Below, one piece after another: positions 24,270 through 37,747 of a stretch of DNA of 52,420 nt. The notes below the pieces were generated by a model that saw only the letters and a program-made list of their open reading frames with translations, was not told where the DNA came from and did no database searches. The translations under genes were made by a program, and so were the position numbers. Position 1 is the stretch's first letter; the number at the start of each line of letters is the position of its first letter. Origin of the DNA: an uncultured Eubacterium sp. (GTDB lineage Bacteria; Bacillota; Clostridia; Lachnospirales; Lachnospiraceae); contig CAJOPH010000025.1 in the NCBI GenBank assembly GCA_905236805.1, positions 1-52,420 on the forward strand. The letters run 5' to 3'.

Positions 24270-24298
24270 TTGACTATTGTGCGAATATGTAGTATATT
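24270..24298 (+). promoter_or_regulatory. Sigma-A promoter at the left end of the accessory island
   Basis: TTGACT (24270-24275), 17 bp, TATATT (24293-24298). Confidence 0.75.
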
Positions 24299-24352: not shown

Positions 24353-25315
24353 GTGAAAAAAATGGTAGCGGCAGTGGGATTGGTGGCCGTTTTGGTATTG
24401 GCCGTAGCGGTGGTGGCTGTCTTTTCCATGCGAGGGAGAAAGGGCGAAGAAAGTATCAGCGCTAATGCTTCAGGGGAGGTAAATCTACAGGAAAGTAAAT
24501 CTCCTTCGGACCTTGCGGAAGATATGGCAGATTCTTCGGGAGACGGAAAGGCAGATCTTGATGAAACCGAAAACGCCGGCAAAGCTTCTGTGGGAGAGGA
24601 TGATACCGCAAGCGACGCATTAAATAATGACGCATCTGCGGAAGAAAATGATGCCGGCAAAGAGTTTTCTTTTGCCAAGACCGACACGGACGGTGCGTCA
24701 GTAACTACGGACGGATCCGTTGATATATCTTCCATAGAGGGCTTTACCCTTAAAGAAATGACGCAAGAGCCCATATCATCGGGAAGGATAAGGATAGTGG
24801 CATTGGGATCTTATTCGGGATTATTTTTTGAGGATGGTTCTGATGAGGAAAAGGAAGATATCTTTGCCGTGGTAGTTACCAATACCACTGACAGGTTTTT
24901 ACAATATTCCGAGATCACCTTTTCCGATGGAAACGGAAAAGAGGCTTCTTTTTCCATCAGCAATATTCCGTCCGGGGCATCCTGCCTTGCCCTCGAGAAA
25001 AATGCAAAGGAATATGCTAAATCCTATGAATATCAGGAGGATGTGAGCGCATTCATAGGAGACGTCTCACTCCACAGGGATGTTTTTTCATGGGAGATAG
25101 CAGATAACATATTGGAGCTGTCAAACAATGGTACAGATGACATTAAGGAGGTGTATGTGTACTACAAGAACGCCGAGGAAGGGGTATACCTCGGCGGCAT
25201 CACGTACCGGGTGCGCTTTGAGGATCTGGGTGCAAAGGAAGAAGGACAGGAATTGTCAAAGCACCTAAGCGCATCAAAGAGTAACATCATGATGGTGGAT
25301 ATCATCAGCGATTAG
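24353..25315 (+). CDS. Membrane-anchored or secreted hypothetical protein with acidic low-complexity linker
   Basis: N-terminal TM (MVAAVGLVAVLVLAVAVVAVFSMRG), Asp/Glu/Ser-rich linker, then a globular beta-type domain. Confidence 0.65.
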   Translation: MKKMVAAVGLVAVLVLAVAVVAVFSMRGRKGEESISANASGEVNLQESKSPSDLAEDMADSSGDGKADLDETENAGKASVGEDDTASDALNNDASAEENDAGKEFSFAKTDTDGASVTTDGSVDISSIEGFTLKEMTQEPISSGRIRIVALGSYSGLFFEDGSDEEKEDIFAVVVTNTTDRFLQYSEITFSDGNGKEASFSISNIPSGASCLALEKNAKEYAKSYEYQEDVSAFIGDVSLHRDVFSWEIADNILELSNNGTDDIKEVYVYYKNAEEGVYLGGITYRVRFEDLGAKEEGQELSKHLSASKSNIMMVDIISD

Positions 25316-25343: not shown

Positions 25344-28300
25344 ATGAAAAAGAAAGTATTATCGTTAGCATTGGCTCTTACGATGGGGCTTAGCCTTGGC
25401 GCATCCGCGGTGCCGGCTCTTGCGGCATCGGGAGACACGGGGCAGGAAGGGCAAGACCTTGAGACGTCCGCATCCACGGCTAAGGCTTCATCAGGGGACG
25501 TGGATCTGCATTATTTTGATGTCACCATGTTTGATTACAAGACGAGGTCTGAAACAGGTTCCAAATTCAACTGGAACGATTATGTAAAGCAGAATTTCCC
25601 GGATGATACAAAAAACATCTACATGAAGGATATGGACTGGGATAAAGATTCTAACGGACAGAAATTTGATATGAGTAGTGGGGTTAATTCCTGGTCACAG
25701 TACAAAGGAATCGAACTGGGCATAGCCAAGGACGAGCTTAATGCTGATTCTGACATTGAATTCAACTATAATGACAATGGATTATTTACGTTGGATAGCA
25801 ATCCTGCAAAGGATGTATTTACAGGTGTGAAATTCCCTATGGTTTTGGATAATGATGGGTATTACAATTTTGACTCTTCGACAATGGACGCGTCTTTCCC
25901 CGGTGGGAAGGGTGAAAACGGCGCTACCATGAATTTCTATAACACCAGTGCCATCTATTCCGATATCAATAAAGATGGATTTTTCCCATACAATGATACC
26001 GAGGGAAAAAGTCGATACAACGGGACGAGGAATTACTACTTCGGAATGAAAATGAATGTAGATTTCTACATGATGAATGATGGGTACATGGATTCTTCCA
26101 AGAAGGAGCCTATAAAGTTTGAGTTTTCCGGTGATGACGACGTATGGGTATATATAGACGGGAAATTGGCTTTGGATCTTGGCGGCATCCACGGTGCGGT
26201 ATATGGAAGCATAGACTTTGCCAGCGGCGATGTATTTGGATATCAGATCTCCGATCCTGACAATACAAATAATACATACACGGAGGAGGCGAACCTCTAC
26301 GCTGTTTTGGGATCTGACTGGAAGAGCTCTGATGAGGTTCATTCCCTCCAGATATACTACATGGAGAGGGGCGCGAATCAGTCCAATCTCAAATTAAGGT
26401 TTAACCTCCCGCAGAAGGATCAGCTGACTGTGGAAAAGGCCTATGATGACACGAGCGCAAATACCGAAAACTATGAGCAGCTCAAGGACAAGGAGTTTAC
26501 CTTCGAGGTAAAGAGGGGAAACTATCCTTTATCCAATGCCTCATATTCGCTCTTCCAGGGAGGTGCCCTCATTGAGAAAAACCTCACCACGAATGAATTG
26601 GGAAGACTTACCCTTAAGTACGATCAAAAGGCTGTATTTGCTTTGGAGATGCCGAGGTCATATTCCAATGAATATACGGTGACCGAGATTACCGACAGTG
26701 ATTACTATGAGTCATCGTGGAATATATGCAAAAACGGTGAAGAGCAGAAGTTCGGTTCAGGTAAGACATCGGATACGTTTACCATACCTTCCAAGTCTGA
26801 ATATGACCGTACGAACATAGACAGCTATACCGTGACTTTCCACAATATCTGGGGCAGTGACCTTGAGGAAAATATAAAGAAAAACGAGCTCAAGGACGAT
26901 GTGGTGGTAGCCGACTACGGCAAAGAAATAGACATAGACGTTTTGGCTAATGACATCATAAATACCGATGACAAGTCGTTTACCTTGGGTGATGATGCCA
27001 CGAATATAAATGGTACATTCGCAAAGAAAGATGAGACCCTGGTAAGCTACACCCCGTTTGATTTCCTCGAGGACATAGAAACAGCCTCCTATTCCGTAAA
27101 AAATACCAGTGGGGATGAGGATACGGCAAAGATTACCGTGATTCCTGCCACCACCGTTTATTATGAGGATGATTTCAACGCGATCACATTCGATGGTGAC
27201 TGGAAAAACGAAGCATCCGAATCATCCGCCAAGGACAAGGTTCAGGATGACGGGCATGTAGGCGAAGGTAACAACTATGGATATGATTCCGGCTATAATG
27301 GAGATCTTCTCTTCTCGGCAGGGGGAGCTAAATACTTTGAGGCATCAAGTGATGAAGAAGAAACAGCTTCTGCTTCATTTACCTTCAAGGGAACGGGATT
27401 TGATATCATAAGCCTTACGGATAATGCTTCTGGTACATTGCTTGTAAATGTGACCAATGAGTCGGGAGATAGGGTATACCAGAGAGTCGTAAACAATAAA
27501 TACACCACGCAGGGAGGAAGGCTCTACCAGGTTCCCGTTATAAACTGTTATGATCTTTCATATGGTACATACACAGTGACACTGACTCCGGGAACGAATG
27601 AAGGCTTTACCTTCTACCTCGATGCCATAAGGGTGTACAACCCCATGGGATCATCCAATGAGACGGCAAATGCCGCATATACCACGGACAAAGAAATAAA
27701 CGCATCTGTAGTGGAAGTACGTGATACCATATTAAATGACGCGGAATCATATGCATCTTCGGCAAACAAAACCCTTTATGTAGACAATGAAGCCGAGGCA
27801 GTCACGGATCTTTCCAAGTATGAGTCCATAGGACCAAATAACGAATTATACCTTAAGAACGGAAATAAGATTTTCACTACGCTTAAGACCGCAAGCGCCA
27901 CAGGACCTTCCTCGGTACAGATCGGGGCAAGGGCTGCCGATGGAAAGGCAGTTTCCCTGGCATTGGAAGTATTTAGGGAAAATGAAGACGGTAACATAGA
28001 GTCCGTAGGAAGCTTCGAGCGGGATATTACATCATCTACGGATATGTACTATGATGTGACGAGCCTCTTTGGTGCCGAAGGGCTTGATTTTGGCAAGGGC
28101 GTGACAATATCCATAGGATATGGTCAGACAGGTGACGGCATTCTTTCCCTTACAAACTTTAAGACAACAGGAGAGGCTGTGACCTTGCTGGTGGGAGATT
28201 CCACCTACAAGACCGTATCTTCGGTATCTACGGCGACAGGGACGTCGGACGTATCCATAGATGCAGGAACCCTTGTTGCGGGTGATGAGGCTTCCGATGA

Positions 28301-28649
28301 TATATCAGCGGATGAGCCCGGTGAAACGGTTACAGGAAGCGATGAGGATGCATCTGATACAGCCGTTACCGTAAATAAAGTAAAGGTAAACAAAAAATCA
28401 TACAAGAAGGGCGCCAAGGCTACCTTGAAGATTACCACATCCGCAAATGCGAAGAGCCTTGTGATAAAGCTTAATGGAAAGAAAGTAAAGATACTTTCCA
28501 AAAAATCCAAGGTTTCGAACGGCAAAAAGTTATGGACCGTAAAGATCAAGGTTCCTTCTAAGAAGGGCACCTACAAATATTCAGTGAAGGCTAAGGCAAA
28601 GGGTATTGCATCATCTGCTAAGTCCTTTAAGATTAAGGTGAAAAAGTAA
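25344..28649 (+). CDS. Secreted multidomain surface protein with fibro-slime domain
   Basis: Signal peptide MKKKVLSLALALTMGLSLGASAVPALAA; FEFSGDDDVWVYIDGKLALDLGGIHGAVYGSIDF (fibro-slime motif); DVLANDI repeat-like segment; CBM-like beta region; Lys-rich C-terminus. Confidence 0.85.
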   Translation: MKKKVLSLALALTMGLSLGASAVPALAASGDTGQEGQDLETSASTAKASSGDVDLHYFDVTMFDYKTRSETGSKFNWNDYVKQNFPDDTKNIYMKDMDWDKDSNGQKFDMSSGVNSWSQYKGIELGIAKDELNADSDIEFNYNDNGLFTLDSNPAKDVFTGVKFPMVLDNDGYYNFDSSTMDASFPGGKGENGATMNFYNTSAIYSDINKDGFFPYNDTEGKSRYNGTRNYYFGMKMNVDFYMMNDGYMDSSKKEPIKFEFSGDDDVWVYIDGKLALDLGGIHGAVYGSIDFASGDVFGYQISDPDNTNNTYTEEANLYAVLGSDWKSSDEVHSLQIYYMERGANQSNLKLRFNLPQKDQLTVEKAYDDTSANTENYEQLKDKEFTFEVKRGNYPLSNASYSLFQGGALIEKNLTTNELGRLTLKYDQKAVFALEMPRSYSNEYTVTEITDSDYYESSWNICKNGEEQKFGSGKTSDTFTIPSKSEYDRTNIDSYTVTFHNIWGSDLEENIKKNELKDDVVVADYGKEIDIDVLANDIINTDDKSFTLGDDATNINGTFAKKDETLVSYTPFDFLEDIETASYSVKNTSGDEDTAKITVIPATTVYYEDDFNAITFDGDWKNEASESSAKDKVQDDGHVGEGNNYGYDSGYNGDLLFSAGGAKYFEASSDEEETASASFTFKGTGFDIISLTDNASGTLLVNVTNESGDRVYQRVVNNKYTTQGGRLYQVPVINCYDLSYGTYTVTLTPGTNEGFTFYLDAIRVYNPMGSSNETANAAYTTDKEINASVVEVRDTILNDAESYASSANKTLYVDNEAEAVTDLSKYESIGPNNELYLKNGNKIFTTLKTASATGPSSVQIGARAADGKAVSLALEVFRENEDGNIESVGSFERDITSSTDMYYDVTSLFGAEGLDFGKGVTISIGYGQTGDGILSLTNFKTTGEAVTLLVGDSTYKTVSSVSTATGTSDVSIDAGTLVAGDEASDDISADEPGETVTGSDEDASDTAVTVNKVKVNKKSYKKGAKATLKITTSANAKSLVIKLNGKKVKILSKKSKVSNGKKLWTVKIKVPSKKGTYKYSVKAKAKGIASSAKSFKIKVKK

Positions 28650-28659
28650 GGAGGATCCT

Positions 28660-28929
28660 ATGAGTAAGAATGTATATGAGACGCCTACCTTGATATTTTC
28701 AAGCACCGGCGTGAGCGATTTTAATGCGAACTGCACAAAGACGGATGATGTTAATGCCACGGAGAATACCTGCAAAATGACCGTAGAAGGAATAAAGAAC
28801 GTGTTTAGCACGGCCGGTGAGTCTTCTCCCTGTGAGGTGGACATTGAATCCTTTGGCAGCCAGAAAAAGGATAAGGACGGGTATTGCTATCATATACCTA
28901 CCAGCGATATGCAGTACTTTAGTTCATGA
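28660..28929 (+). CDS. Candidate RiPP precursor peptide (89 aa; Cys at 25, 38, 58, 76)
   Basis: Strong SD (aaggagg), leader-like YETPTLIFSSTG (YxxPxL...G), four Cys. Overlaps the next gene (ATGATG). Confidence 0.65.
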   Translation: MSKNVYETPTLIFSSTGVSDFNANCTKTDDVNATENTCKMTVEGIKNVFSTAGESSPCEVDIESFGSQKKDKDGYCYHIPTSDMQYFSS

Positions 28930-29819
28930 TGAAGAGATGTTTTATACTGGGGGATCTTGGGATCATCATAGATTCCCCGGTGGATCTGCCTTCATTTGAA
29001 AGATTAGATGTCTTTGAGGCAGGATGTGAAAATGATACGGCAGTGGAGACGGAAGTTCTCCGCTGCCGTTTTGAGGATTATGGGAAGGTTAAAGGCGTCC
29101 ATGCCTACAGGATCAGTGGAAAGCACAGGTACTATTTTCTTGGCGAAATGGAAATAATGGTACATTTTAGCCTTTATCCTGAAAAAGAGCTCATATGGTG
29201 CATTGACAAGGGCATTGGTGGGAAGGATATATATATATCTCCTGATATACCTCCTGCCTGCCTTTGCCTTCATGAGATATTAAAGCATGTGGATCTTACG
29301 GGGATATTGTCAAGGCACGGGAGGTATGTGCTGCATTCGTGCTATGTAAAAAAAGACGGCAGGGCCATACTATTTTCGGGTGACCCCGGAGATGGCAAAT
29401 CCACCCAGGGGTCACTTTGGGAGCGCTACGGGGATGCTGAGGTCATAAATGGGGATAGGAGTCTTATCTATAAGGATCATCTGACCCAAAAATATTATGC
29501 CGGGGGGTATTTTTACTGCGGATCCTCCGGGATATGCAAGAATGAATCCCTTCCCATAGCGGCCATTGTTTTTCTCGAAAAAGGAAAGGAAAATGTTTTG
29601 TGTCACCTTTCAAAGGCAGAAGCCATAAAGAGATTATACCTTCAGCTTTCGGGAGATTCATATTTTGAAAAAGATGTGGATATTAGGCTTTCCTTCCTTT
29701 GCGATTTGGTAGATAAGATCCCTGTATATCTTCTTAGATGCAGGATAGACAGGGGGGCAGTGGATATATTGAAGGATGAATTAACAAATGGAACCTGCAA
29801 ACATCTCAAGGCTATTTGA
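28926..29819 (+). CDS. HPr kinase/phosphorylase-like P-loop protein (RiPP-locus type)
   Basis: ILFSGDPGDGKSTQGSLWERYGDAEVINGDRSLIYKD is an HprK-type Walker A context. Overlaps precursor and rSAM genes. Confidence 0.7.
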   Translation: MMKRCFILGDLGIIIDSPVDLPSFERLDVFEAGCENDTAVETEVLRCRFEDYGKVKGVHAYRISGKHRYYFLGEMEIMVHFSLYPEKELIWCIDKGIGGKDIYISPDIPPACLCLHEILKHVDLTGILSRHGRYVLHSCYVKKDGRAILFSGDPGDGKSTQGSLWERYGDAEVINGDRSLIYKDHLTQKYYAGGYFYCGSSGICKNESLPIAAIVFLEKGKENVLCHLSKAEAIKRLYLQLSGDSYFEKDVDIRLSFLCDLVDKIPVYLLRCRIDRGAVDILKDELTNGTCKHLKAI

Positions 29820-30900
29820 AAAGGCCAAGGACAGGGGAATCCCTTTGAACGGGACATTTGAGCTCTCCCCCATGTGCAATATGGACTGCTCCATGTGCTA
29901 TGTACGAAGGACGAAGGATGAGGTCATGGAGGCGGGGGGACTTCTTTCGTCTGATGAATGGTATGAAATAGGGAAGGAAGCTGCGTCAAACGGCATGCTT
30001 TTCCTTCTTCTTACGGGAGGAGAGCCCCTGCTTTATCCTGATTTTTTTGGCCTTTATCACCGCCTGAAAAACCTGGGGCTTATGATAGCCTTAAATACCA
30101 ATGGAACCATGCTCACCGAAGAGATGGTAAGGGAGCTTTCGAGGAATGCGCCTTACAGGATACAGCTTACTTTGTACGGTGCATCAAATGAAACCTATGG
30201 AAGGCTTTGCCAAAACAAAAAGGGCTTTGACCAGGTAATAAGGGCTTTAGACCTCCTTAAAAAATATTCTTTGACATTCAAGCTAAATGCCACCATGACT
30301 CCCCGGAATATTGATGACATTGAGGAAATCTACAGGATTGCCAGGGAGTATGATGCATATGTGCAGACCAGCACCTATATGTTTCCCCCTTTAAGAAAGG
30401 GGAAGGATGAATTTGAAAAGGAGGATAGATTCTCTCCAAAAGAGGCAGGGTTTTATCTGGCCCGGATAGACAGGCTAAGATACGATGGGGAGCTTTTAGA
30501 CAAAAAAAAGCAGATGATCAAAAATGAGCAAAAAGAAAGGGATAAGATATACGAAGACTGTGAAAGGTCTTTCAAGGAACCCTTAGGCTGCAGGGCAGGG
30601 AGGAGCTGTTTTTGGATTTCATGGCAGGGCAAAATGACGGCCTGCGGAATGATGGATGAGCCGGATATAGATGTAAGGAAAGAAGGGATAAAAAAAGCCT
30701 TTGACCTTATAAGGGAAGATACCCAAAAAAGATTTTTGCCGCCCAAATGCACCTCGTGTGAGCTAAGGTCAGCGTGCCCCGTGTGCGGCGCCGCCGTCTT
30801 TTGTGAGATGGATAGGAATTTTGATGAGCCCCCCTCTTACCTGTGTGAGATGACAAAAAGTTATGTAAAGGAGATGGGAATATATAATGAAAAGGTCTGA
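29788..30900 (+). CDS. Radical SAM/SPASM peptide-maturase-like protein
   Basis: ELSPMCNMDCSMCYVRR (CxxxCxxC), LLTGGEPLLYPDF, and SPASM cysteines GCRAGRSCFWISWQGKMTACGMM...CTSCELRSACPVCGAAVFC...YLCEMTKSY. Confidence 0.9.
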   Translation: MEPANISRLFEKAKDRGIPLNGTFELSPMCNMDCSMCYVRRTKDEVMEAGGLLSSDEWYEIGKEAASNGMLFLLLTGGEPLLYPDFFGLYHRLKNLGLMIALNTNGTMLTEEMVRELSRNAPYRIQLTLYGASNETYGRLCQNKKGFDQVIRALDLLKKYSLTFKLNATMTPRNIDDIEEIYRIAREYDAYVQTSTYMFPPLRKGKDEFEKEDRFSPKEAGFYLARIDRLRYDGELLDKKKQMIKNEQKERDKIYEDCERSFKEPLGCRAGRSCFWISWQGKMTACGMMDEPDIDVRKEGIKKAFDLIREDTQKRFLPPKCTSCELRSACPVCGAAVFCEMDRNFDEPPSYLCEMTKSYVKEMGIYNEKV

Positions 30901-31150
30901 TGAATTTGTATTAAGAAACGTGGCAGATGAATATATGCTTATTCCCATAGGGGAGATGTCGGCCAAACATAATGGGATCATTTCATTAAATCCCGTAAGC
31001 CTTCTTCTCTGGGAGAAGCTTTCCGGGGATGTATCTAAGGAAGATTTAATAGAGGCTGTCCTTGAAAAATTCGATGCGCCAAGGGAGGTTATTTCCGTGG
31101 ACATTGACCAATTTTTAGATCAGCTAAGACAGATGGATATGATTTTATGA
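30887..31150 (+). CDS. PqqD-like peptide-recognition protein (RRE)
   Basis: 87 aa: LRNVADEYMLIPIGEMSAKHNGIISLNPVSLLLWEKLSGDVSKEDLIEAVLEKFDAPREVISVDIDQFLDQLRQMDMI. Confidence 0.85.
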   Translation: MKRSDEFVLRNVADEYMLIPIGEMSAKHNGIISLNPVSLLLWEKLSGDVSKEDLIEAVLEKFDAPREVISVDIDQFLDQLRQMDMIL

Positions 31151-31734
31151 AGATACTTTTTTATGGTGATTCAAACACATATGGTTTTGACCCGAGAGGA
31201 CCTGTCCCCGGAAGGTATGACGAGGAAAAGATATGGCCATATATTGCGGGAGGCGTTTTTAATGACGCGGATATTTTCGTAAGGGGACAAAACGGAAGAA
31301 AGCTTCCTTCGTCTGATTTTGATTTCGAGGTTATGTTTAATGCGATAAGGGAGTTTGAGCCGCTTGATCTGTTTGCCGTGATGCTTGGGACCAACGACTA
31401 TATTTATATGTATGCCCCGGATCTTAAAGAGGTGGTTAAAAGGGCAGCCCATATGCTGGATATGATAAAAAACGAATTTCCAAAGCTTGGGATTTTGCTT
31501 ATTGCCCCGCCTCCTGTAAAGACATCAAATGTGTGCGGCATGCAAAAGTATGATACGACAGATGGGAGAATGTCAAAGGAATACAGGAAACTTTCCGCGG
31601 AAAAGGAAACCATGTTTTTTGACGCGGCAAATGAGCCGCTATCCATGGCATTTGACGGGGTACATCTTTCTGAGGAAGGACACAGGATGCTTGGGATGAG
31701 GGTTGGTCAATATTTGAAAGATGAGTTTTCCTAA
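31147..31734 (+). CDS. SGNH/GDSL hydrolase
   Basis: ILFYGDSNTYGFDPRG, VMLGTNDYIYM, FDGVHLSEEGHRMLG. Confidence 0.88.
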   Translation: MKILFYGDSNTYGFDPRGPVPGRYDEEKIWPYIAGGVFNDADIFVRGQNGRKLPSSDFDFEVMFNAIREFEPLDLFAVMLGTNDYIYMYAPDLKEVVKRAAHMLDMIKNEFPKLGILLIAPPPVKTSNVCGMQKYDTTDGRMSKEYRKLSAEKETMFFDAANEPLSMAFDGVHLSEEGHRMLGMRVGQYLKDEFS

Positions 31735-31757
31735 ATCTTTTTTTGGGTAGATCATTT

Positions 31758-32573
31758 ATGTCAGATACAAATTTAGAAAAAAAATACCATGAATTAAAAA
31801 GCATATTGGAAGGCTATGGAAAAACTGCCGTGGCCTTTTCCGGTGGAGTAGACTCTACCTTTCTTCTTTATGCAGCGTTTGAAGTCCTTGGGAAGGATGT
31901 TTGCGCGGTCACATCATCATCCGCCATGTATCCCCAAAGGGAGCTTGATGAAGCAAAACAATTTTGCAAAATCCGCGGCATAAAGCATATCATCCTAAAG
32001 AGTGATGAGCTAAAGGTAGAAGGATTTAAGGAAAATCCCAAAAACAGGTGTTATCTTTGCAAGAAGGATCTTTTCCAAAGAATGAAAAAAGAAGCCTCCC
32101 TTCAAGGGGTAAGTACAATAGCCGAAGGCTCGAACAAGGATGATGAGGGAGACTACAGGCCCGGGCTTGATGCGGTTTCTGAGCTTGGCATAAGATCCCC
32201 CTTAAGGGAGGCTATGCTTACCAAGGAAGAAATAAGGAAGCTTTCTAAGCAGCTGGGTCTATCCACATGGGACAAGCCTTCATTTGCCTGCCTTGCGTCC
32301 CGTTTTCCCTACGGTGATACCATTACCAAAGAAGGGCTATTGATGGTGGAGAAGGCAGAAGAGTATTTAAGGGGATTGGGGATAAGGCAGTACAGGGTGA
32401 GAAATCACCAAAAGATAGCAAGGATAGAGGTTTTGCCGAAGGACTTTGAAAAGCTCTTGGAAGATGATACAAGGGAAAATATATACAAGGCATTTACGAG
32501 CTATGGCTTTAGCTATGTGGCGCTGGATCTTTTGGGATATCGTTTGGGAAGCATGAACAGGGAGATAGTATAG
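31758..32573 (+). CDS. larE: LarE-family ATP-dependent sulfur transferase
   Basis: TAVAFSGGVDSTFLLYAAFEVLG, NRCYLCKKDLF, EGSNKDDEGDYRPGLDAV, KPSFACLASRFPYGDTITKEGL. ATG at 31758 preferred. Confidence 0.88.
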   Translation: MSDTNLEKKYHELKSILEGYGKTAVAFSGGVDSTFLLYAAFEVLGKDVCAVTSSSAMYPQRELDEAKQFCKIRGIKHIILKSDELKVEGFKENPKNRCYLCKKDLFQRMKKEASLQGVSTIAEGSNKDDEGDYRPGLDAVSELGIRSPLREAMLTKEEIRKLSKQLGLSTWDKPSFACLASRFPYGDTITKEGLLMVEKAEEYLRGLGIRQYRVRNHQKIARIEVLPKDFEKLLEDDTRENIYKAFTSYGFSYVALDLLGYRLGSMNREIV

Positions 32574-33443
32574 TTGGGAAGGGAGCTTACTTTTTGTCAG
32601 AATGTTGAAAGAAGCATTTCAAAAAAATACAGGAAAACCATCTGGAATCCATTCATAAAGGCCATAAAAAATTATGATCTTATCAGCGAAAATGACCACG
32701 TGGCGGCCTGTATTTCCGGAGGAAAGGACTCCATGTTAGGAGCCGTTCTTTTAAGGATGCTAAAGAGGTATTCCGATGTGCCCTTTGAGCTCTCCTTTAT
32801 CGCAATGGATCCGGGATACAATGAAGAAAACAGACAGATGATAGAAAAAAACGCTGCCCTTTTGGAGCTTCCCGTGGAGATATTTGTCTCTGATGTGTTT
32901 GACATAGCATATTCTGTAGAAAAATCCCCCTGTTATCTGTGCGCCAGGATGAGGAGGGGGCATCTTTACGCAAAGGCAAAGGAAATGGGCGCAAATAAGA
33001 TAGCCTTGGGACACCACCTTAGCGATGCCATAGAAACGGTTCTTTTATCCATGTTCTATGGATCGCAGATCCAGACCATGCCCCCAAAGCTTAGGAGCAT
33101 GAATTTTGAAGGGATGGAGCTTATAAGGCCCTTGTACTGCATAAAGGAAGATGACATAATTTCCTGGAAAAATTATAACGGCCTCCAATTCATACAGTGC
33201 GGATGCAGATTCGTGGAGGATTCTGATAAAGGTGTGGGGGATTCAAAGCGAAAGGAGATAAAAGAGCTGATAAGAAGTTTAAGAAAAAATAATCCTGACA
33301 TAGATAACAATATTTTTAACAGCCTGCATAAAGTTCATATAGATACCTTTCCGGGATTTAAGTCCAAGGGGAAAGATCATAGCTTTTTGGAAAGATATTG
33401 GGAATATAGAGTTCAAGACGGGGGAACCTTTTTTGAAAAATAA
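32574..33443 (+). CDS. TtcA-family PP-loop ATPase/sulfurtransferase
   Basis: ACISGGKDSMLGAVLL, CYLCARMRRGHLYAKAKEMGANKIALGHHLSDAIETVLLSMFYG, C-terminal CGC. TTG start. Confidence 0.8.
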   Translation: MGRELTFCQNVERSISKKYRKTIWNPFIKAIKNYDLISENDHVAACISGGKDSMLGAVLLRMLKRYSDVPFELSFIAMDPGYNEENRQMIEKNAALLELPVEIFVSDVFDIAYSVEKSPCYLCARMRRGHLYAKAKEMGANKIALGHHLSDAIETVLLSMFYGSQIQTMPPKLRSMNFEGMELIRPLYCIKEDDIISWKNYNGLQFIQCGCRFVEDSDKGVGDSKRKEIKELIRSLRKNNPDIDNNIFNSLHKVHIDTFPGFKSKGKDHSFLERYWEYRVQDGGTFFEK

Positions 33444-33473: not shown

Positions 33474-33533
33474 GTAGAGTGGTTGGTAGCTATTGATCAA
33501 GAAAGGATTTTTGCCGCAAGGGCAGATGAAGCA

Positions 33534-34931
33534 ATGGTATTTTCTAGCATAATTTTTCTTTACGTATTTCTGCCGCTCCTGTTCATAGGGTATGGAATAA
33601 CGAAAGGGACAGGGAAAAATCTTATTCTTTTGGTTTTTTCCCTGTTTTTTTATGCATGGGGGGAGCCCAAGTATATTTTGCTGATGATATCCTCCATAGT
33701 CATAAATTACCTTTTGGGCATGGCCATATTTGGAAACAAAGGCCATGCGAAAAAGGTTATTTTGGCTTTGGGTGTCATTATAAATATTTTTATGCTTGCG
33801 GTGTTTAAATATCTTGATTTTATAATAGGTATAATAGACCTTGTTCCCGGAATGAACCTAAATGAAGCAGGCATTACCCTTCCTATCGGCATATCTTTCT
33901 ATACCTTTCAGGCCCTTTCATACCTGATAGATGTTTACAGGGGTGATGAAGAAGTAGAAAAAAACCTCGTTAATTTTGCCACGTATATATCGTTTTTTCC
34001 GCAGCTCATAGCAGGTCCCATAGTTCAGTACAGGCATGTGAGGACAAGGCTGAACGAAAAAACAAATCCATCCTTAAATGAAATAAACGAAGGCGTAATG
34101 AGGTTTTGCATAGGCCTTGGAAAAAAGACCCTTATTGCCAACGCCTTAGGGCAGATGGTGGATTCTCTTACCGTGTTGAGGGGAGATGAATTGTCGTGCC
34201 TGTCTTCATGGGTGGCGGTCATTGGCTTTTCTCTGCAGCTTTATTTTGACTTCTCCGGATATTCGGACATGGCCATAGGATTAGGGAAAATGTTTGGCTT
34301 TTCCTTCCCGGAAAATTTCGATCATCCCTATGAGTCAAAAAGCGTCACTGAATTTTGGAGAAGGTGGCATATTTCACTGGGGTCGTGGTTTAGGGATTAT
34401 GTATACATACCCCTGGGGGGAAGTAAAAAGGGATTTAAAAGGCAGGTATTGTCGATACTGGTGGTATGGGCCGTGACAGGTCTGTGGCATGGCGCGTCAT
34501 TTAATTTTGTCGTATGGGGACTCTATTATGCCGCGTTTTTGCTTATGGAAAAAATATTTCTCCTTAGATTAACCGCAAGATTCCCATCCTTTTTGAAGCA
34601 TCTTTACACGGTGGTTGTCGTGGTAATAGGATGGAGCATATTTATGAAACCGGATCTTACGGCGGGATATGGATTCTACAAAAAGATGGCGGGGATGGGG
34701 GATTTGACAGACCGGGGCATTTTCTTTGTGATCAGGGAATACGCCGTGATCTTGGTGCTTGGCATCATAGGCAGCACCGGTATCCCAAAGAGACTCTCAG
34801 GCAGGATTGTGGAAGGAAATGATGGGTTAAAATACATATTGTCCTGCGTGTTTATTTCGTTTATAATGGTTCTTTCCACAGCTGCCATTATCAGTGATAC
34901 GTACAATCCTTTTTTATATTTTAGGTTCTAG
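33534..34931 (+). CDS. MBOAT-family O-acyltransferase (AlgI/DltB-like)
   Basis: MVFSSIIFLYVFLPLLFIGYGI, LPIGISFYTFQALSYLIDVYRGD, ESKSVTEFWRRWHISLGSWFRDYVYIPLGGSKKG, TGLWHGASFNFVVWGLYY. Confidence 0.93.
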   Translation: MVFSSIIFLYVFLPLLFIGYGITKGTGKNLILLVFSLFFYAWGEPKYILLMISSIVINYLLGMAIFGNKGHAKKVILALGVIINIFMLAVFKYLDFIIGIIDLVPGMNLNEAGITLPIGISFYTFQALSYLIDVYRGDEEVEKNLVNFATYISFFPQLIAGPIVQYRHVRTRLNEKTNPSLNEINEGVMRFCIGLGKKTLIANALGQMVDSLTVLRGDELSCLSSWVAVIGFSLQLYFDFSGYSDMAIGLGKMFGFSFPENFDHPYESKSVTEFWRRWHISLGSWFRDYVYIPLGGSKKGFKRQVLSILVVWAVTGLWHGASFNFVVWGLYYAAFLLMEKIFLLRLTARFPSFLKHLYTVVVVVIGWSIFMKPDLTAGYGFYKKMAGMGDLTDRGIFFVIREYAVILVLGIIGSTGIPKRLSGRIVEGNDGLKYILSCVFISFIMVLSTAAIISDTYNPFLYFRF

Positions 34932-34975
34932 AGCCGCTCGATGCGGGTGCATGGCAGGGAAGGAGATAAACTAAA

Positions 34976-36412
34976 ATGAATGTAGATAAATTCTCTTCAT
35001 ATAAGAGGCGTTTTTGGGGCTTGCTTTTTGCATTATCTGCGGCATTTCTTATGTGGGGGATAGTTCCCGATAAAGCCTTTGCACAAGACGATGACCATAC
35101 GCTTAAGGTGTATGAATGTTCTTTTGGGATGCGTTTGTACAAGGGGGATACCACCTTCATAGACATATGCAAAAAGAGCGCTGATAAAGTGGAGGTTTCA
35201 TCTTCAGATAAGGATGTGGTTTCCATAAACCTAAAGGGAAAGATCACGGCAAAAAAATGCGGCCGTGCCACGGTTTTCATACATCTTGTATCGGAAGAAT
35301 GCATTAGGGACATAAGCCTTGAGATAAAGGTGGAGTATTGCTCCTATGACAGCAAATCCTCACAAGGAAGCGGAATAAAAAGAAATTCAAATTCCGTTTC
35401 GGTAAAAGTATATAACGAGATGAGGAAGGGAGGAAAGGTTTCTTTTTCCATAGACCCTGACATGTCGATAAAAAGTTCAAAGCCTTCCGTAGTTTCCATA
35501 AAAGACGGCATGATCTATGCCCAAAAAAAGGGGGATAGCAATGTCACGGTATCGCTAGACAAGGAAGGCAGCACCGTTAAAATATGTACCATAAAGGTAA
35601 CGGTAAAAAACAAAAAGAAGCTAAAGCCCAAAGTGGCCCAAAAGGATGCTTTTTTCAAAAATTCACTGTTTACGGGCAACTCACTGGGGATAGGATTTAG
35701 ATATTATTGTGACAATAAATACAAGTCATTTCTGGGAAATGTCATTAACATCAGCGCAAAAAGCTATAGCTTCATGAATGACCTAAGTAAGGTTACCTCA
35801 TCATCCCTTCATCCTACCTACCATGGGAAGAAAAAGAAGGTAAAGGACCATGTCAAGGATATCAAACCCAAACACATAATCCTTCATTACGGAATGAATG
35901 ACCTTAATATCTATGGGGTGCTAGGGTCGGCAGATCATTACAAGAGCTTCATAAAAAACCTCGAAAAGGTAGACAAGGATGCGCATTTTTATATAATGGC
36001 CATGACTCCGGTCATGCAGAATAAAGGAAGGCTTAATTACACTGACATAAAGAAATTTAATAAATACCTTAAAAAATACGCTGCCACAAAGGATAATGTG
36101 ACCTTCATAGATGTATTTACTCCGCTTTTGGAAAAGGGGACCACGAGGCTTAAAAAATCATACTGCAGCGATGGTTTTTGCCATTTGACATTTGCCGCAT
36201 ATGACGTGTGGAGGGACAAGCTCTATGAGTATGCCGCAAAGCAGATAGTAATAAATACCAAGGCCAATGATGCCTACCATACGGTAAAGGATACGTTAAG
36301 CGAAGAAGATTATGAAAATGCAAGTAAGCTGGTAAACAAGATGCAGGCGGGGCGTGACAGGAACAAGCTTCTTAAAAAATTAAAAAAGCTAAAAATACGG
36401 TTGGAAAAATAA
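34976..36412 (+). CDS. Secreted protein with BIG2-like Ig domain and SGNH-hydrolase-like domain
   Basis: N-terminal signal; VEVSSSDKDVVSINLKGKITAKKCGRATVFIHL (BIG2-like); FTGNSLGIGF, LHYGMNDLNIYG, YCSDGFCHLTFAAYDVW. Confidence 0.75.
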   Translation: MNVDKFSSYKRRFWGLLFALSAAFLMWGIVPDKAFAQDDDHTLKVYECSFGMRLYKGDTTFIDICKKSADKVEVSSSDKDVVSINLKGKITAKKCGRATVFIHLVSEECIRDISLEIKVEYCSYDSKSSQGSGIKRNSNSVSVKVYNEMRKGGKVSFSIDPDMSIKSSKPSVVSIKDGMIYAQKKGDSNVTVSLDKEGSTVKICTIKVTVKNKKKLKPKVAQKDAFFKNSLFTGNSLGIGFRYYCDNKYKSFLGNVINISAKSYSFMNDLSKVTSSSLHPTYHGKKKKVKDHVKDIKPKHIILHYGMNDLNIYGVLGSADHYKSFIKNLEKVDKDAHFYIMAMTPVMQNKGRLNYTDIKKFNKYLKKYAATKDNVTFIDVFTPLLEKGTTRLKKSYCSDGFCHLTFAAYDVWRDKLYEYAAKQIVINTKANDAYHTVKDTLSEEDYENASKLVNKMQAGRDRNKLLKKLKKLKIRLEK

Positions 36413-36448
36413 ATATCATGCCGGTAACTGTTCAAAAAGGTGATACGT

Positions 36449-37747
36449 ATGAGCATTGGAAAAATATTAAAGGTCTTGCCGGCTTTGGTCTTTTCGATGA
36501 TGCTGGGTGTTGGTTTTTTGCTTATTATTGCTTTTCCCAAAGAGGATTTTTCGAAGATTGAAAACAGAAACCTTTCGCAATTTCCGAGCATTTCAAAGCA
36601 AACCATAACAGGCGGGGATTTTGAAAAGGAAATAGAAGATTATTTAAATGATCATTTTCCGTTTAGAAATAAGCTCGTTTCCCTAAATACGAAAAGAGAG
36701 CTTCTTCTAGGAAAGAGGATGGTAAATGGTGTGTATTATGCCAAGGATGGATACCTTATTGAGTATCATGATGAAAATGACATAGATAAGGACAGGGAAA
36801 AAAATAACGCAAGGATCCTTTCAGGAGCCGCATCTTATTTTGGAAAAAAAATAGGGAATGAGAATGTAAAGATCTACCTTACCCAAACCAAGGAAAATGC
36901 CTTATCTTACCTGCTTCCCGGGGAGCTTACCCCCTATGATGGGGGAAAAATGGTAAACAGGGTAAAAAAAAGGCTTAAAAAAGAAGGTGCGGATATTAAG
37001 GTCATAGACACATCACTGATACTTTCAGATGCGGAGGGGATGTATTATTACACTGACCACCACTGGGTGAGCGATGCTGCCAAAGAGGTATATGAAAAAT
37101 GGTGTGAGGATGAGGGAGAGGATAAAAGGACAGACATAATGGATAAAGTAGTAGTATCTGATTCTTTTTGCGGCTCTACGTATTCCAAGGTGCTTTATTC
37201 TTCCAGGAAAGATGAGATAGTGCTTTACGAATCGTCATCTTCATCATCTTTAATAAGTGTTACCTATCCTGATGATAGTGACGTTGATGACAGGGATTCC
37301 ATGTACCAAATGGATAGGCTTTCCCATGCCCAAGGGTATGAGGTTTTCTTCGGGGGGAATTTTTCGGATATAGTAATCCACAATGATAACGGAAACGGAA
37401 AAAGGCTCGTTATTTTCAAGGATTCTTTCGCAAACTGCTTCGTGCCGTTTTTGGCCGGACATTATTCGGACATACTGATGATAGACCTTAGGTATCTCGA
37501 TGAACCTATTAAGGATGTTTTGGATGGGTTTGGGGAATATGATGATCTGATCTTCATGTATAATACGATAAAGCTGGCACAAGATACTGACCTTTACAAG
37601 CTTTCCGAGTATATCGAAGATGATGGTGACTCTTTTGTAGATAAAGGAGACTCAGACATAGTGACAGACGATGATTCGGACATAATGATAGATGACGATT
37701 CTGACATAATGATAGATGATGACTCTGACATAATGATAGATGATTGA
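36449..37747 (+). CDS. DHHW family (AlgX/AlgJ-like) cell-surface protein with C-terminal Asp-rich repeats
   Basis: [49 protein letters not shown]. Confidence 0.8.
37649..37744 (+). repeat. 24-bp tandem repeat, about 4 copies, encoding DSDIMIDD
   Basis: gactcagacatagtgacagacgat / gattcggacataatgatagatgac / gattctgacataatgatagatgat / gactctgacataatgatagatgat. Confidence 0.9.

Follow-up and report, generated by a model that had tools for sequence, protein, structure and literature searches.

Homologs of the HPr kinase encoded in lasso peptide clusters phosphorylate the hydroxyl of the C-terminal serine of their substrates, the rest of the sequence mattering little (PMC8498205, PMC9266682). A His-Lys-Asp-Asp set has been reported as essential in these kinases (PMC9266682), and PsmN, annotated as a nucleotidyltransferase, attaches hexoses to the phosphate (PMC9266682, PMC8498205). 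RREs, in turn, recognize W/Y/LxxP/L/I motifs (PMC12710340). The cassette described here, found in a window of 52,420 nucleotides (the whole stretch of DNA that was analyzed) of a gut-type anaerobe, unites two tailoring logics that are known apart, namely radical SAM peptide chemistry and C-terminal serine phosphorylation of the HPr kinase type. No paper combining HprK, PqqD and radical SAM was found in the indexed open literature, to which the search was confined, and the novelty is accordingly provisional. Our preferred reading, to which we assign a probability of about 0.62, is that of an operon for peptide maturation of the RiPP type, linked with a cell-surface module, in which the peptide would undergo RRE-guided radical SAM modification and phosphorylation of its C-terminal serine, and would act at the surface.

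Gene organization of the operon

All five overlapping ORFs that the original prediction placed at 28660-31734 were found, together with the overlaps claimed for them, i.e. ATGA at 28926/28929 and 31147/31150, 32 nt at 29788/29819 and 14 nt at 30887/30900. The strong SD is present as well, as AAGGAGG ahead of the first ATG of the 89-aa ORF. While the genes of this five-gene locus are real, the conserved unit starts further upstream, at 24353, and two genes had been overlooked, here called ANCH and FIB (Table 1). The FIB stop lies 11 bp ahead of the precursor start. The resulting order in the window is ANCH, surface protein, precursor (type P1, see below), HprK, radical SAM and PqqD, and the common order in other loci is surface protein, P1, ANCH, HprK, radical SAM and PqqD. 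A single transcript starting at the promoter-like site upstream of ANCH would be consistent with the consensus match. Such sites are no commoner around these positions than in shuffled sequence.

Table 1. Features of the cassette and its immediate surroundings, in positions of the window.
Feature	Position	Strand	Description
Promoter-like site TTGACT-17-TATATT	24270-24298	+	upstream of ANCH; consensus match only
ANCH	24353-25315	+	membrane-anchored; transmembrane helix at the N-terminus, then a linker and a pair of beta-sandwich domains; belongs to the conserved cassette
FIB	25344-28649	+	1101 aa; secreted surface protein with signal peptide, fibro-slime/PA14 domain and Big_9
Precursor peptide, type P1	28660-28929	+	89 aa; leader Y6xxP9, Cys25/38/58/76, C-terminal Ser89
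HprK-like P-loop kinase, predicted C-terminal Ser kinase	28926-29819	+	297 aa
Radical SAM/SPASM peptide maturase (predicted)	29788-30900	+	370 aa
PqqD-like RRE, predicted leader-binding chaperone	30887-31150	+	87 aa
SGNH/GDSL hydrolase	31147-31734	+	195 aa; translationally coupled, no conserved cassette part

The last gene of the overlapping series matched GDSL lipases in Pfam (PF13472, 2.4e-15) and had been proposed as an esterase-like tailoring gene; despite its translational coupling here, it had no equivalent in any of the 116 other loci and was rejected as a tailoring enzyme. Directly downstream of the cassette (31743-33443) are LarE and a TtcA-like PP-loop protein, the latter scoring 188 against an NCBIfam cut-off of 272. 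Both are considered background, because LarE recurs in one other locus only (L060), with an integrase-like gene in between, and a TtcA-like gene likewise in one (L074), on the opposite strand. Further on, at 33483-37747, a row of genes for an MBOAT protein (DltB/AlgI-like), an SGNH protein with Big_2 and, by inspection, an AlgJ/AlgX-like protein looks like a surface O-acylation operon. The remainder of the window was judged by inspection to consist of chromosomal housekeeping genes, with no exporter among them.

Distribution of the cassette

Within the same bacterial family, 46 out of 396 genomes (about 12%) have homologs of the radical SAM protein (E<1e-30, up to 48% identity). From a public genome set, an alignment scan retrieved 80 named loci, which belong to Lachnospiraceae, Oscillospiraceae, Peptostreptococcaceae, Christensenellaceae and Erysipelotrichaceae; a single-protein scan of the named genomes gave no matches. 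Recurrent families were defined by gene clustering across 117 loci. Out of the 64 radical SAM loci with full flanks, 54 had an HprK-like gene within 3 kb, 44 a PqqD gene, 38 a recognizable P1 precursor and 24 ANCH. The combination of a small precursor, a modifying enzyme and a leader-recognition element is conserved across genomes, as expected from the RiPP-type locus originally proposed, and this is a genuine and widespread peptide-maturation cassette, which recurs with variations among many related gut bacteria. Culturable relatives with such a locus include the Fusibacillus kribbianus and Anaeromassilibacillus senegalensis lineages (L064, L080).

The precursor family

The four cysteines described for the 89-aa ORF are where they were said to be, spaced by 13, 20 and 18 residues. 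Neither this ORF (Pfam) nor any of 45 precursors (NCBIfam, all models) was matched, and the family is without an entry in the copies of the two databases searched. It nevertheless has more than 60 diverged members adjoining related radical SAM genes in Clostridia and relatives, about 20-33% identical to the ORF of the window. In many loci the P1 ORF is 80-93 aa long and situated upstream of the HprK-like or radical SAM gene, its sequence following MKKxYxKPxxxxExFxLSxxIAxxC...C...F...C...CYHxP...FxS. The presence of homologs beside related radical SAM, HprK and PqqD genes supports the 89-aa ORF as the precursor; their absence next to radical SAM/PqqD pairs would have spoken against the original prediction. 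The P1 consensus reads KKxYxxPxxxxExFxLSxxIAxxC...C...F...C...CYhxP...FxS; in the 45-sequence alignment M1, Y6, P9, C25 and S89 are invariant at a mean column identity of 24%, which bears out the YxxP leader first seen in the single sequence.

A precursor profile built without the window had the 89-aa ORF as its sole match among 465 ORFs of the window (E 1.6e-12), aligning from the leader through the final residue, and the match is therefore not due to chance. When 392 genomes of the order were searched with the precursor profile only (E<=1e-5), three genomes were matched and all three carry cassettes: the window's own, one already known (G033) and a new one (G707). In the latter, two of the three precursor matches belong to complete cassettes, the first consisting of surface protein, P1, a 587-aa gene, HprK, radical SAM and ANCH, and the second of surface protein, P1, HprK, radical SAM and another surface protein. 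The third match is at the edge of a contig, with a PqqD gene next to it. The AlphaFold model of the 89-aa ORF has a mean pLDDT of 54, exceeding 70 in the leader region only; a folded protein was accordingly rejected as a reading, and the core is predicted to be disordered.

Besides P1 there is a longer kind of precursor, P2, with about 100-160 aa and the leader KREYVxPxxxxExFxANEYVAAC. Its loci (L104, L161, L036, L054 and others) contain NTP_transf_5, ABC exporter, S26-like peptidase, exopolysaccharide, PHP phosphatase and Wzz-type genes, several with two or three radical SAM copies. On a rapidly built radical SAM tree, many forks of which are weak, precursor type was clustered, with 26 changes against 44 in shuffles and none out of 200 shuffles as low; the P1 locus of genome G290 was the row nearest to the window.

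Radical SAM and RRE proteins

The assignments of the radical SAM/SPASM and PqqD-like proteins were upheld. In Pfam the former matched Radical_SAM (2e-26), and both its CxxxCxxC motif and the C-terminal SPASM cysteines are invariant in 18 homologs, as befits a member of the radical SAM/SPASM enzymes. The closest solved relatives by profile match are SkfB, PqqE and 5v1q; the last is entered as "Radical SAM", and we take it to be SuiB. The 87-aa ORF matched PqqD (PF05402, 5.4e-15), with a weak match (E 0.12) to the lasso RRE TbiB1.

The C-terminal serine and the kinase

The C-terminal peptide of the precursor, ..CYHIPTSDMQYFSS, ends in S89. A terminal serine is found in 62 out of 63 P1 precursors, the window included (these are related sequences and not independent), and in 14 out of 17 of the P2 type, against 5.7% of the other proteins in these loci. 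The exceptions end in FSST (P1) and in NASV, NLSY and PFSA (P2). All three precursors from the precursor-only search in G707 also end in serine. The phosphorylation that had been raised as a possibility is hereby given a specific candidate site, and we include phosphorylation of the terminal serine in the likely path because lasso HprK homologs phosphorylate the same residue.

The 297-aa ORF had no match in Pfam and no sequence match in the PDB; its NCBIfam matches, SynChlorMet ScmC (4e-6) and HprK_rel_A (4e-5), were both far under cut-off. Across 112 aligned kinases H137, G157, K158, T160, W165, D177 and G199 are invariant. In an alignment with lasso-locus kinases from the same bacterial family, NGD is found here in place of their ADD, so that the family keeps the His, the Lys and one Asp of the lasso His-Lys-Asp-Asp set, one catalytic Asp being missing. 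Judged from these residues, catalysis by the HprK-like protein is likely yet not assured, because NGD replaces ADD while the full set is reported to be essential.

A distant sister group (L043, L044, L047 and L049) has the order PqqD, radical SAM, a 127-134-aa ORF, HprK, ABC exporter and exopolysaccharide genes. Its kinases are of the INGD type, and the small ORFs beside them are unrelated, without a YxxP leader, the Cys pattern or a C-terminal serine.

The HprK-like protein might, on another reading, have a regulatory or ATP-binding function or some other target, the terminal serine serving export, folding or cleavage. The altered Asp-Asp motif, the sister group in which the kinase occurs with no Ser-ending ORF, and a PqqD-HprK fusion found in the window's own genome beside an exporter, with no radical SAM or precursor gene seen, would all fit. 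We nonetheless regard this as rather unlikely, given that H137, K158 and D177 are invariant in the 112 sequences and that nearly all P1 precursors carry a serine at the documented substrate position of RiPP-cluster HPr kinase homologs.

Surface proteins and export

ANCH, present in 50 out of 117 loci, matched a profile built without the window at E 3.7e-62. Its AlphaFold model has a pLDDT above 90 for 194 residues, with a helix at 3-29 and an all-beta part at 131-318; no Pfam family was found for it, and a fold search gave generic Ig-like/beta-sandwich matches alone, with low TM scores. FIB scored 52.7 bits against TIGR02148 (Fibro_Slime, cut-off 45) and also matched PA14 and Big_9. For 32 P1 ORFs, a same-strand gene encoding 700 aa or more stops less than 250 bp upstream, and a large adjacent protein with a signal-like N-terminus occurs in 23 out of 38 P1 loci. 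These neighbors and ANCH agree with the surface connection suggested originally. Given this association of P1 loci with giant surface proteins, a cell-surface role of the peptide is likely, as a prediction from gene neighborhood.

Many of the giant proteins just upstream of P1 terminate in a short tail that is aromatic and amphipathic, examples being IFGRWF, LFSRWF and LLGWLFK (L151:3539-7756, L114, L120, L096, L102, L086, L160 and others). Two close aromatics within the last 10 residues were found in 15 out of 32 of these proteins, compared to 35 out of 567 other proteins. The tail, which FIB of the window does not have, might serve as a signal for sorting or docking.

The lack of an exporter or leader protease noted originally holds for the locus of the window, where no exporter, protease or immunity gene was recognized. 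As to the exporter, however, another contig of the same genome (C92) encodes a single full-length homolog, 41% identical to the exporter in some sister loci. On this contig the ABC exporter adjoins the PqqD-HprK fusion gene mentioned above (L173:4294-7193). There is also one NTP_transf_5 gene in the genome, on contig C14, and both this and the exporter may act in trans.

Against this background, a secreted antimicrobial, i.e. a sactipeptide- or ranthipeptide-like bacteriocin with incidental surface genes, appears unlikely. The Cys-containing precursors, the leaders of relatives, weakly like that of StsA, and the nearest solved radical SAM relatives, which are RiPP maturases, would suit such a product, but StsB and PapB scores are far under cut-off, the locus has none of the recognizable accessory genes listed above, and ANCH and giant surface proteins recur. 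Very improbable, in our view, is that ANCH or the large surface protein is the substrate of the radical SAM/PqqD pair, the 89-aa ORF being a mere small accessory or chaperone. That surface proteins are so closely linked to the cassette speaks for this; against it, the small peptide has an invariant YxxP leader, the radical SAM/HprK/PqqD set also accompanies P2 precursors in loci without a surface protein, and the small peptide is predicted to be disordered past its leader, as expected of a RiPP substrate.

Proposed pathway

In the peptide-maturation operon that we prefer, the PqqD-like RRE would bind the precursor via its YETP leader and present it to the radical SAM/SPASM enzyme. This would install one or more radical modifications in the core, at residues of about 25-80, most likely thioether or C-C crosslinks with the conserved cysteines, although their type is not readable from sequence. 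The HprK-like kinase would phosphorylate Ser89, and the product would be exported by an exporter encoded elsewhere in the genome, to act at the cell surface with the fibro-slime protein and ANCH from the same operon. As a speculative and decidedly improbable extension, the phosphoserine might be an attachment point, e.g. through a phosphodiester bond with a polymer or sugar, formed with NTP_transf_5-type enzymes, leaving the peptide covalently surface-bound near the giant adhesin-like proteins; if so, a class of such radical-SAM-modified peptides would be widespread in gut Clostridia. The analysis yields a precursor profile absent from the Pfam and NCBIfam copies searched, predicts one sharply defined site, Ser89, and gives grounds for examining the cell surface rather than looking for a bacteriocin.

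Comparison with known systems

The sactipeptide and ranthipeptide maturases SkfB, StsB and PapB share with the cassette a SPASM radical SAM enzyme and Cys-containing peptides, but here the RRE is a separate gene and a kinase is present. Membership in these curated families was rejected, with scores of 59.6 against a cut-off of 625 for StsB and 49.8 against 340 for PapB, SkfB also being under cut-off. The HPr-rel-A system likewise combines an HprK-related kinase with a PqqD-family chaperone, but TIGR04352 and TIGR04353 scored 23 and 17 bits, under their cut-offs of 200 and 35. The SynChlorMet cassette (ScmC, ScmD, ScmE, ScmF), to which the locus was originally likened, has the same set of HprK-like, PqqD-like and radical SAM/SPASM proteins; unlike it, the present locus has a single radical SAM gene and surface-protein neighbors. 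With scores against cut-offs of 26/125 (ScmC), 26/100 (ScmD), 64/400 (ScmF) and 54/400 (ScmE), the likeness amounts to remote homology and nothing beyond.

Kinase-tailored lasso peptides, namely paeninodin (PadeK/ThcoK) and pseudomycoidin (PsmK/PsmN), share with the cassette a discrete PqqD-like RRE, a YxxP leader, an HprK homolog and a C-terminal serine in the precursor, as well as NTP_transf_5 and an exporter in sister loci. They differ in having a B2 protease and a C cyclase where a radical SAM/SPASM enzyme is found here, in lacking the long core with four cysteines, and in the ADD motif of their kinases. By Pfam, neither a lasso B2 protease nor an asparagine-synthetase-like C cyclase is encoded in the cassette, and B2 had no match in the genome of the window. 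By these tests the cassette belongs to none of the lasso, SynChlorMet, HPr-rel-A or curated sactipeptide systems; in its logic it resembles the kinase-tailored lasso loci.
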